The notes under the pieces: generated by a model
Seen by the model: the letters and a program-made list of their open reading frames with translations, nothing else
What the model was told of the DNA's origin: nothing
Databases searched by the model: none
Shown: positions 58,549-61,977 of the stretch, in pieces
Position numbering within the stretch: position 1 is the stretch's first letter
Layout of the letters: every line of letters starts with the position of its first letter
Assembly: GCA_003153375.1 (NCBI GenBank)
Contig: PLYM01000202.1
Location: 1-64,000, forward strand
Direction: 5' to 3'
DNA length: 64,000 nucleotides
Origin: Planctomycetaceae bacterium
Lineage (GTDB): Bacteria; Planctomycetota; Planctomycetia; Pirellulales; PALSA-1355
Position numbers and translations under genes: made by a program

Positions 58549-58971
58549 ATGCGCATCGTCAAATGGATCCTCAAAATCGTGTTCGCGGTGTTTTTCATTG
58601 GCGCCGGCGTGTCGCACTTTCGCAGCCCGGAGTTCTTCCTGCGGATCGTGCCCGACTACATCCCCCAGCGTCTGCACGGCCCGGCCGTCGATGTGAGCGG
58701 CGTCTTCGAGATCCTGCTGGGGGCACTGCTGCTGGTGCCGCGCGCCACCCGGCTGGCCGCCTGGGGGTTGATCGCGTTGTTGATCGCCGTATTTCCGGCC
58801 AATATCTATCTCTTCCAGCATCAAGAGCTGATGCCTGACGTGAGCCCGACGGCCCAATTGGTGCGATTGCCGTTGCAAGGCGTGCTGATTGCCTGGGCCT
58901 ATTGGTTCACTCGGCCCGACCGTCCGCGATCCGCGCAACTCGCGAGCGAACCCTCGTCACCGAGCGAGTGA
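58549..58971 (+). CDS. DoxX-like small membrane protein
   Basis: 140 aa, four hydrophobic helices (IVKWILKIVFAVFFIGAGV, FEILLGALLLVPRATRLAAW, LIALLIAVFPANIYLF, LVRLPLQGVLIAWAYWF). The GVSHFRSPEFFLRIVPDYIP segment after helix 1 is characteristic of the DoxX/DUF417-like group. Family members are often linked to redox or oxidative-stress proteins; here the next gene on the opposite strand encodes a peroxiredoxin-kinase fusion, 20 bases away. The ATG at 58549 is chosen because it starts the first helix; an in-frame ATG at 58486 is possible. Function unknown. Confidence 0.8.
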   Translation: MRIVKWILKIVFAVFFIGAGVSHFRSPEFFLRIVPDYIPQRLHGPAVDVSGVFEILLGALLLVPRATRLAAWGLIALLIAVFPANIYLFQHQELMPDVSPTAQLVRLPLQGVLIAWAYWFTRPDRPRSAQLASEPSSPSE

Positions 58972-58991: not shown

Positions 58992-60422
58992 TTAGCCGCC
59001 GGCGATCGAAAAATCGCGCCAGTCGAGCAACTCGACGATGTCGCTCATCGTGATGTCGCGCTGCCTCGGATCGCCCACCAGGGCGCGACGCAGAATCGTG
59101 GCCAGCGGCTCGGGCATGCCCTCGGCAAACCGGGCAGCGTCGAGCGTGTCGATTTGCCGCAGCACGTCGAGCAGGTTGCCGGTCGTCACCGCTTTGCGAC
59201 CGCTGACCATCTCATAGAGCATCAGCGCCAACGCGAACACGTCGCTGCGCGAGCTGGCCGGCTCGCCGCGCGTCTGCTCGGGCGACATATAGTCGGGCGT
59301 GCCCGACAATCCACCGGCTTCGCTGATGGTGTCCCAAGTGCCGGTCTCGTCCGTGGCCCGCGGTTCGCGATGGGCCAGGCCAAAATCCATGATCTTGGCC
59401 AACCCGTCGGAGGTGACCATGATGTTGCCCGGCTTCAGGTCTCCATGCACGATCTGCTGAGCGTGCGCGGCGGCCATGCCCAGCGCGATCTGCCGAGCGA
59501 TGTTCTTGGCCTCTTCGAGCGAAAGCTTGCCGCCGGAGAGCACTTTCTTCAGCGAGTTGCCGTCGATGTACTCCATCACGATCATCGACACGCCGTCACT
59601 TTCGTCGATCGCGAAGATCGTGCAGACGTTTGGATGATTGAGCGCCGCGGCCGACCGGGCTTCATCGAGCGCCCGGCGCGGCGAACCGTTGCTCTCGCGA
59701 TGAAAAATCTTCAAGGCCACGGGCCGTTCGAGCGTCAGATCGTGCCCGCGAAACACCACGCCGAACGAGCCCGTGCCAATTTGCTCGTCGACCCGATACT
59801 GTCCCACGACGCTGCTGGGTCCAATCACCCACGCCGGATTGATCACCGGGTCGTCGCGGACCCAATTTTCGGGGCACAACCCGCCGGTTTGCAGACCGTC
59901 CAACACACGCAGCACTTCCTCGCTGCGCCGGCCCACGCTCAGATTGTGTACCACCTGATATTGCAGCACGCCGTTGACGTCGATGATGAACAGCCCGCGG
60001 AGGGCGATGTTCTGCCGTGGCAGATAGACGCCATAGGTCTGGCAAACCGCGCCCTCCAGATCGCTCGCCAAGGGAAAGGCCAGGCGGCCAATTCCTCCCT
60101 GGCTGCGCGGCGTGGTCAGCCATCGTTCGTGACTCTCGAGCGAGTCGGTGCTGATGCCCAAAATGTCGCAGTCGCGGCGGGCGAACTCCTCGAACTGCAC
60201 GCTCATCGCGGTCAGCTCGGTGGGGCAAACCAGCGAAAAATCGCGAGGATAGAAGAGTAAAATCAGCCACCGATCGCGGAAATCGTCGAGCGAAACTTCT
60301 CGCGCCTCGGAGGTCGGCGTCGCCGTGCAGGGCAACCTGAAATCGGGCGCTCGCGTGCCAACACAGACTGCCGGCGCGGCGTTTTTGCGTCCCGTCTTTT
60401 TTCGATCGGATTGAGAGCTCAT
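58992..60422 (-). CDS. Peroxiredoxin fused to Hanks-type Ser/Thr kinase
   Basis: 476 aa single open frame. Residues about 18-190 form a typical 2-Cys peroxiredoxin of the AhpC/Prx1 group: peroxidatic C66 in FYPRDFSLVCPTEL (PxxxSxxC) and resolving C183 in GLCPENW. After a short linker, residues about 205-470 are a protein kinase: Gly-loop IGTGSFGVVFRG, ATP lysine K238 (VALKIF), alpha-C Glu near 254, catalytic loop VHGDLKPGNIMV (D328, N333; Gly replaces Arg, a non-RD kinase), DFG at 346-348 and APE-like GTPDYMSPEQ. No transmembrane helix, so cytoplasmic. The direct fusion suggests peroxide oxidation could be passed to the kinase. Divergent from the Tat-exported gene at 60613. Both catalytic sets look intact. 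Confidence 0.94.
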   Translation of the reverse strand: MSSQSDRKKTGRKNAAPAVCVGTRAPDFRLPCTATPTSEAREVSLDDFRDRWLILLFYPRDFSLVCPTELTAMSVQFEEFARRDCDILGISTDSLESHERWLTTPRSQGGIGRLAFPLASDLEGAVCQTYGVYLPRQNIALRGLFIIDVNGVLQYQVVHNLSVGRRSEEVLRVLDGLQTGGLCPENWVRDDPVINPAWVIGPSSVVGQYRVDEQIGTGSFGVVFRGHDLTLERPVALKIFHRESNGSPRRALDEARSAAALNHPNVCTIFAIDESDGVSMIVMEYIDGNSLKKVLSGGKLSLEEAKNIARQIALGMAAAHAQQIVHGDLKPGNIMVTSDGLAKIMDFGLAHREPRATDETGTWDTISEAGGLSGTPDYMSPEQTRGEPASSRSDVFALALMLYEMVSGRKAVTTGNLLDVLRQIDTLDAARFAEGMPEPLATILRRALVGDPRQRDITMSDIVELLDWRDFSIAGG

Positions 60423-60612: not shown

Positions 60613-61977
60613 ATGCCAGGCCCCCAGGTCACGTCCCGTCGCGACTTTTTGACGCAAGCCGCCGCCACAGCCGCCGGCGCCAGTTTGCTCGGCACCGGTT
60701 TACTCGGCACCAGCGCCGGAAGAATCCTGGCCGCTGACAATAGCAAGCGTCCGCGGGTGGCGGTACTGATCAACACGTTCTATTACTCCAGCCACGCGCA
60801 CGTGATCCTGGAAAACTTCCTGGTTCCCTACCTGTTCAACGGCCAGGTGGTTCAGCCCCAAATGGACGTGGTTAGCTTTTACGTCGATCAAATTCATCCC
60901 AACGACATGGCCCGCGACGTGGCCAAACAGTTCAACATTCCGATCCATGCCACGATCGCCGAGGCCCTCTGCACGGGCGGTGACAAACTGACGGCCGACG
61001 CCGTGCTGCTGATCGGCGAGCATGGCACCTATCCGACCAATGCCAAGGGCCAGGTCGAATATCCTCGCAAGCAGTTCTTCGACCAGACCGTGGAAGTGTT
61101 CAAACACAGCGGCAAGGTGGCGCCCATTTTTTGCGACAAGCACCTCTCGTATCGCTGGGATTGGGCCAAGGAGATGGTCGACACCTCGCGGGCGATGAAA
61201 ATTCCGCTGATGGCCGGCAGCTCGGTGCCGCTGGCCGAGCGCCGCCCGCCGCTGGAGCTGCCCGCTGCCTGCAAGATCTCCGAGGCGGTCTCGATTCATG
61301 GAGGGGGATTGGAAGGCTATGACTTTCACGCGCTGGAAGTGCTGGAGTCGATGGTCGAAGCCCGGCAAGGCGGCGAGGCGGGCGGGCGCGACGTGCAGTT
61401 TCTGGAAGGCGAACCCCTCTGGAAAGCGGCCGAGGCGGGCGTCTGGTCGAGCGAATTGGCGGCGGCGGCGATGGCGGCCGAAGTCGGACCCGATCACGAA
61501 TTGACGAAGCTCATCCAATCGCGCGGCAAATCGACGACGGCCGAAAAAACACCGATTCACGCCATCGTCGTTCACTATCGCGACGGCCTGCGCGGCGTGG
61601 CGATGAAAGTGGGCAATAACGGCATTCGCTGGAACTTCGCCTGCCAACTAGCCGGCGAACAGCAACCGCGGGCCACGAGCTTCTACGTTGGCCCCTGGCA
61701 GAATCGCAACCTGTTCCGCGCCCTGTCGCACGCCATCCAGACCTTCTTCCGCGAGCACAAGTCGCCCTACCCCGTCGAGCGCACGTTGCTCACGAGCGGC
61801 ATTCTCGACGCCGCCATGGACTCTCGCCTGGCCGGCAAGCAGATCGAGACCCCGCAGCTCGACATTGCTTACGCCCCGCAAGATTTTCGTGCCATGCGCG
61901 AAATGGGCGCCACTTGGAAGATCATCACCGACGCCATCCCCGCCCCCAAAGGCATCGAAGCAGTGGGCATCAACTGA
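60613..61977 (+). CDS. Tat-exported protein of unknown function
   Basis: 454 aa with a twin-arginine signal (SRRDFLTQAAATAAGASLLG). The mature part begins RPRVAVLINTFYYSSHAHVI, a nucleotide-binding-like strand-turn-helix, and continues with VLLIGEHGTYPTNAKGQVEYP, FCDKHLSYRWDWAKEMV and IPLMAGSSVPLAERRP. This outline somewhat recalls Gfo/Idh-type folds, but no clear dinucleotide motif is seen. The later part has YVGPWQNRNLFRALSHAIQ and a DIAYAPQDFRAMREMG ending. Similar Tat proteins seem common in Planctomycetes; no function is known to me. GGAG 9 bases before the ATG at 60613 supports the start. Confidence 0.8.
   Translation: MPGPQVTSRRDFLTQAAATAAGASLLGTGLLGTSAGRILAADNSKRPRVAVLINTFYYSSHAHVILENFLVPYLFNGQVVQPQMDVVSFYVDQIHPNDMARDVAKQFNIPIHATIAEALCTGGDKLTADAVLLIGEHGTYPTNAKGQVEYPRKQFFDQTVEVFKHSGKVAPIFCDKHLSYRWDWAKEMVDTSRAMKIPLMAGSSVPLAERRPPLELPAACKISEAVSIHGGGLEGYDFHALEVLESMVEARQGGEAGGRDVQFLEGEPLWKAAEAGVWSSELAAAAMAAEVGPDHELTKLIQSRGKSTTAEKTPIHAIVVHYRDGLRGVAMKVGNNGIRWNFACQLAGEQQPRATSFYVGPWQNRNLFRALSHAIQTFFREHKSPYPVERTLLTSGILDAAMDSRLAGKQIETPQLDIAYAPQDFRAMREMGATWKIITDAIPAPKGIEAVGIN

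Follow-up and report, generated by a model that had tools for sequence, protein, structure and literature searches.

The window, by which we mean the whole 64,000-nucleotide stretch of DNA analyzed here, carries on its minus strand a gene for a peroxiredoxin joined to a Ser/Thr protein kinase. The gene is one frame from ATG to TAA (476 amino acids plus stop) with no internal stops, and its product has two Pfam matches, AhpC-TSA (residues 21-155, E 9.6e-34) and Pkinase (residues 209-459, E 1e-45). A first-pass annotation, made from the letters alone, had given the correct coordinates but no strand, and every residue that it named lies at its assigned position in the translation and alignment. 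A gene for a DoxX/MauE-like membrane protein (58552-58971, plus strand) converges on the fusion gene tail to tail, ending 20 bases from its end, and the other flank is occupied by a divergent gene at 60613 (plus strand). Within the fusion gene, the following features were assigned.

58992..60422, minus strand: peroxiredoxin-Ser/Thr kinase fusion gene (open frame; Pfam AhpC-TSA and Pkinase)
59829..60368, minus strand: typical 2-Cys peroxiredoxin (Prx1/AhpC type) domain, residues 19-198 (Pfam AhpC-TSA, phmmer, Foldseek)
60225..60227, minus strand: peroxidatic C66 in PRDFSLVCPTE (45/45 homologues)
60168..60170, minus strand: C85, conserved non-catalytic Cys of the peroxiredoxin fold (38/45 homologues)
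59874..59876, minus strand: resolving C183 in GGLCPENW (45/45 homologues)
59799..59828, minus strand: interdomain linker, residues 199-208 (C183-to-G216 spacing of 32-33 residues in all 45)
59022..59798, minus strand: Ser/Thr protein kinase domain, residues 209-467 (Pfam Pkinase, E 1e-45; Foldseek PknA/PknB)
59709..59711, minus strand: catalytic K238, partner of alpha-C E254 (both in 45/45 homologues)
59622..59624, minus strand: C267, immediately before strand beta-4 of the N-lobe (42/45 fusions)
59439..59447, minus strand: HGD catalytic-loop motif (non-RD), residues 326-328 (43/43 fusions)
59379..59387, minus strand: DFG motif, residues 346-348 (alignments)
59343..59345, minus strand: T360 of the activation-loop DET motif, candidate phosphosite (acidic-x-Thr in 32/43 loops)
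59274..59303, minus strand: GTPDYMSPEQ (P+1 loop/APE motif), residues 374-383 (translation, alignment)

The N-terminal half has the marks of a typical 2-Cys peroxiredoxin, namely the PxxxT/SxxC motif, an active-site arginine and a resolving cysteine in the C-terminal tail. Its best phmmer match among solved structures, over residues 17-197, was mammalian mitochondrial Prx3 (5jcg, E 6.8e-45). The peroxidatic motif of the window protein reads P59-x3-S63-x2-C66. P59, C66 and R142 are present in 45/45 fusions, position 63 is S or T in all, and W187, near the resolving C183, is retained in 42/45. The C-terminal YF helix of the sensitive eukaryotic type is absent from the fusion, whose tail CPENWVRDDPVINPAWVIGPSSVVGQYR continues into the kinase. 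This helix is not known to be a requirement of bacterial Prx1/AhpC members.

The C-terminal half gave StkP, PknB and PknA as best matches among solved structures. It has the Hanks-type motifs (Gly-loop with glycines G216/G218, VALK Lys, alpha-C Glu, HxD-K-N, DFG and an APE-type motif), which were invariant in alignment A1; D328, K330, N333 and D346 are kept in every fusion long enough to show them. Exceptions to the kinase motifs in the 45-member set were a truncated fusion (L070), whose sequence ends at the contig end, and one from a metagenome assembly (L051:8827-10137, plus strand) in which a deletion takes out Phe-Gly of the DFG motif together with most of the activation loop; either this kinase is dead or the assembly is wrong at this place. 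Another relative (L071:9983-12463, plus strand, the same protein as L141) has 827 amino acids and carries in one frame the peroxiredoxin, the HGD kinase and a second, HRD-type kinase. Against the PASTA kinase (PknB/StkP) equivalog model, the window protein scored 211 bits, over the kinase part only, versus the NCBIfam cut-off of 450 bits.

The catalytic loop sets these kinases apart from the 28 best-scoring other planctomycete kinases aligned with them: all 43 fused kinases have HGD, whereas all 28 of the others have HRD. The same alignment included HGD kinases from other phyla; as these had been selected for that very pattern, they are a biased sample. An RD loop marks the subclass usually activated by loop phosphorylation and is not required for the Hanks-type family; constitutive or weak activity is common among non-RD kinases. 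The first-pass annotation had read HGD as often meaning activation independent of loop phosphorylation, fitting control by the N-terminal domain. The non-RD assignment turned out to be better founded than that annotation could know, yet its bearing on activation is only suggestive. An acidic-x-Thr motif is found in 32 of 43 activation loops, versus 17.5 +/- 3.0 in shuffles (maximum 27 in 1000), a comparison made on the same loops in which the motif had been spotted and so not independent of them. Because the motif recurs, loop phosphorylation or docking may still play a part.

The AlphaFold2 monomer model comprised two confident domains (mean pLDDT 88.8, pTM 0.73), with pLDDT below 50 only at the activation-loop tip (357-369) and the C-terminus; the relative placement of the domains was not used as evidence. 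Foldseek searches with this model recovered human and bovine Prx2/Prx3 folds and mycobacterial PknA/PknB folds. At the level of sequence, an intact typical 2-Cys peroxiredoxin directly joined to a complete non-RD Ser/Thr kinase is thus confirmed.

After duplicate removal, 45 distinct fusion proteins, full or partial, were obtained, nearly all from Planctomycetota. This family size is a lower bound (at least 45), as is the count of at least 24 loci in the named genome collection, which include those of Tautonia sociabilis, Rhodopirellula solitaria and Blastopirellula marina DSM 3645. Within the window's order, 19 of 397 genomes (13 of 145 genera) carried the fusion, as did 12 of 392 genomes sampled across the phylum, with one copy per genome at the thresholds used. 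Among the matches listed, the only fusion outside Planctomycetota, by its label, comes from a MAG that bears the label Candidatus Zixiibacteriota (L058:9977-11362, plus strand, contig of 182 kb), by cross-phylum transfer or mislabelling of the contig.

The first-pass annotation had proposed asking whether the linker and both cysteines are conserved jointly with the kinase residues across Planctomycetes, and had reckoned with homologues lacking catalytic residues. The outcome was strongly positive, and the feared losses did not occur: C66 and C183 were present in 45/45, K238 and E254 in 45/45, and D328, N333 and D346 wherever the sequence covered them. C183 and G216, the first glycine of the Gly-loop, are 32 residues apart in 42 of the members and 33 apart in the other three. 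This spacing is constant although identity between fusions drops to about 41-45% and activation loops can be as short as 20 or as long as 86 residues. Features that the first-pass annotation had not described are the conserved C85, the kinase C267, the fixed linker, the co-inherited HGD and the variable activation loop with its acidic-x-Thr motif.

Phylogenetic trees were built for each domain. The peroxiredoxin tree compared the 45 fused domains with 33 separate enzymes of planctomycetes and 16 sequences from other loci, and a single branch (SH-aLRT 95) set the fused sequences apart from all others. In the tree of kinases, two fast-evolving sequences of other phyla fell among the fused ones; when the 43 fused kinases were constrained to group together, the likelihood improved, and this arrangement was not rejected (p-AU 0.865). 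Both trees split the family in the same way, into a 22-member set and the rest. Activation loops span 46-86 residues in the 22-member set (the long-loop half) and 20-31 in the rest (the short-loop half), which includes the window protein, except for 56 in L071. The trees were quick and many inner branches are weak, so only this coarse agreement was used. Since both domain trees give identical halves, they point to a single, ancient fusion event. Both domains are under purifying selection, with dN/dS of 0.04-0.29 in nine pairs and dS saturated in a tenth. As for a split precursor, with adjacent separate peroxiredoxin and kinase genes, no kinase motif was found in ten loci around the nearest separate peroxiredoxins.

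These data also bear on the idea that the architecture is an accident. The first-pass annotation had warned that a sequencing error might have removed a stop between two genes; a single recent joining event would likewise carry no functional meaning. The draft status of the assembly is the one point in favor of such an artefact, while against it stand 45 distinct in-frame homologues of the same architecture, forming one clade, with both halves under purifying selection. We rejected a lost stop or chance readthrough on the homologues and the dN/dS values (about 0.04-0.29 in both domains), and consider the probability of any artefact negligible.

The surroundings of the gene are variable. ORF clustering over 24 loci plus the window revealed no conserved operon partner, the fusion and its antisense frames being all that was common to most. 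Because no partner is conserved, the protein looks self-contained. L061, too, has a DoxX-type gene close to the fusion, and L060 has a ferritin gene there. Four loci have a gene for a di-haem cytochrome c peroxidase (CCP_MauG) no more than about 10 kb from the fusion.

L073:6852-8000: CCP_MauG gene, only about 75 bases upstream of the fusion
L068:7209-8261: CCP_MauG gene in the neighborhood of the fusion
L055:9624-10046: CCP_MauG gene in the neighborhood of the fusion
L071:18745-20607: CCP_MauG gene in the neighborhood of the fusion

This proximity, suggestive but not general, may reflect a peroxide-related neighborhood or chance.

Genome content differed between the two halves of the family. 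Among nine short-loop genomes sampled from the window's order, eight (G000, G001, G003, G021, G025, G037, G047 and G056) yielded no separate typical 2-Cys peroxiredoxin, the exception being G002. A separate enzyme was thus found in 1/9, versus 21/26 fusion-free genomes (Fisher p 4e-4, kinship ignored), the latter picked by hand and including five that also had none. As the only typical 2-Cys peroxiredoxin in those eight genomes, the fusion must carry any such function there, and the pattern suggests that it replaced the separate enzyme. In the long-loop half, 17/18 genomes have a separate peroxiredoxin besides the fusion. Because most fusions of this half coexist with a separate enzyme, their peroxiredoxin domain need not scavenge, a point against the peroxide-sensor reading given below. 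In the window's genome we found thioredoxin reductase, nothing over the cut-off for AhpF, no catalase match beyond 25 bits, a KatG piece at a contig edge and about 40 other kinase matches. With thioredoxin reductase present and AhpF not found, a thioredoxin-type reset would be available.

We interpret the fusion as a soluble, cytosolic, one-component peroxide-sensor kinase switched by the redox or oligomeric state of its peroxiredoxin, and put the probability of this reading at roughly 60%. Reduced Prx1/2 form decamers, and their disulfide forms partly dissociate to dimers (PMC10829873). In the fusion, the peroxiredoxin part would assemble dimers and rings, placing several kinase domains on one scaffold. 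H2O2 would oxidize C66, and a C66-C183' disulfide would then form between partner subunits, unfolding the C-terminal tail and loosening the ring into dimers. With C183 a mere 32 or so residues upstream of the Gly-loop, this rearrangement would move and re-pair the kinase N-lobes, altering autophosphorylation as well as phosphorylation of distant substrates. Thioredoxin would reset the sensor, and mixed rings could form in lineages that keep a separate peroxiredoxin. We favor a direction in which oxidation turns the kinase on rather than off. The proposal in the first-pass annotation that, with the kinase covalently attached, oxidation could switch phosphorylation directly is favored by the comparative data, from which we infer that such switching is likely. 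Against this reading count the ability of a sensor to operate without ring changes, the constitutive or weak activity common among non-RD kinases, and the disrupted kinase of the L051 fusion, although that sequence stems from a metagenome assembly. The fuller version, in which the protein is a natural, anciently fixed, one-polypeptide converter of peroxide to phosphorylation, with ring disulfide and oligomer state gating up to ten kinases and with mixed rings in those lineages that retain a free peroxiredoxin, is tentative, and we hold it somewhat more doubtful than not.

A covalent switch within the chain was also considered, in which oxidized C66 hands its oxidation on to kinase C267, by the alpha-C/beta-4 loop, through disulfide exchange. 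Such a relay has been proposed for Prx1 and ASK1, and Prx1 is documented to engage this kinase via mixed disulfides after H2O2 (PMC8300624). In the kinase alignment C267 was present in 40/43 fusions versus 6/28 other planctomycete kinases (Fisher p 4.8e-10, kinship ignored). Yet three fusions (L059, L071 and L072) have Ala or Gly there with the kinase core intact, whereas both peroxiredoxin cysteines are invariant, and Cys occurs at the same site in unfused kinases as well. We consider the relay unlikely.

Alternatively, the peroxiredoxin could be mainly an oligomerization scaffold, its ring keeping kinases close for trans-phosphorylation without redox control. Ring formation by 2-Cys peroxiredoxins (PMC10829873) agrees with this, and a linker of fixed length would be apt for a rigid scaffold. 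A scaffold, though, needs neither C66, C183 and R142 nor the P-x3-S/T-x2-C pocket, all invariant or nearly so in the 45 proteins, nor does it account for the lack of another typical 2-Cys peroxiredoxin in 8/9 sampled short-loop genomes; this makes it distinctly unlikely. Control might also run in reverse, the kinase phosphorylating its own peroxiredoxin domain and tuning the peroxidase, for example to let peroxide signals rise. Two intact, tethered enzymes are compatible with this, and phosphorylation of eukaryotic Prx1 affects its activity. But the roughly 40 other kinases matched in the window's genome could act in trans with no fusion at all, and we judge reverse control improbable.

Returning to the peroxide-sensor kinase, the first-pass annotation knew of no characterized protein of this architecture, in agreement with our search of the open-access literature, which found no papers on a peroxiredoxin-kinase fusion. 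Each module is known by itself, and so is the action in trans of a peroxiredoxin on a kinase; we found no description, in the open-access literature or the genome collections, of a conserved covalent fusion that occurs naturally. If the reading is right, many planctomycete bacteria probably convert peroxide to a phosphorylation signal in one step with one protein. It would add a type of cytosolic sensor to the bacterial Ser/Thr kinases, few of whose inputs are known in Planctomycetes. Since peroxiredoxins and kinases meet only briefly, the way in which peroxide signals pass between them is under debate; in the fusion, evolution has joined them with fixed stoichiometry and geometry, which makes it a clean system for measuring whether, and in what way, peroxiredoxin oxidation controls a kinase.

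The fusion shares with typical 2-Cys peroxiredoxins (human Prx2/Prx3, yeast Tsa1/Tsa2) the fold, PxxxS/TxxC, R142, the GG motif and a resolving Cys in CPxxW context. Unlike these, it has a kinase where many Prx1 proteins have a C-terminal tail with a YF helix; the nearest separate peroxiredoxins in our comparison set end shortly after the resolving Cys. With the Hanks-type kinases PknB, PknA and StkP it has in common the complete kinase fold and motifs. It differs from them in having no PASTA domains, no region left for a membrane anchor, its sensor at the N-terminus rather than the C-terminus, a non-RD HGD loop and, in half of the family, a long and variable activation loop. Like the mammalian Prx1-ASK1 relay (PMC8300624), it pairs a typical 2-Cys peroxiredoxin with a Ser/Thr kinase in what would be an H2O2 response; unlike Prx1 and ASK1, which are separate and meet via a mixed disulfide, it is one polypeptide. 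The engineered probe roGFP2-Tsa2 likewise joins a typical 2-Cys peroxiredoxin genetically to another domain, and still enters active mixed rings (PMC13038412). That probe is man-made and its attached domain is a redox-sensitive GFP rather than a kinase; the fusion, if our reading holds, would be the natural counterpart of such peroxiredoxin-based peroxide probes.
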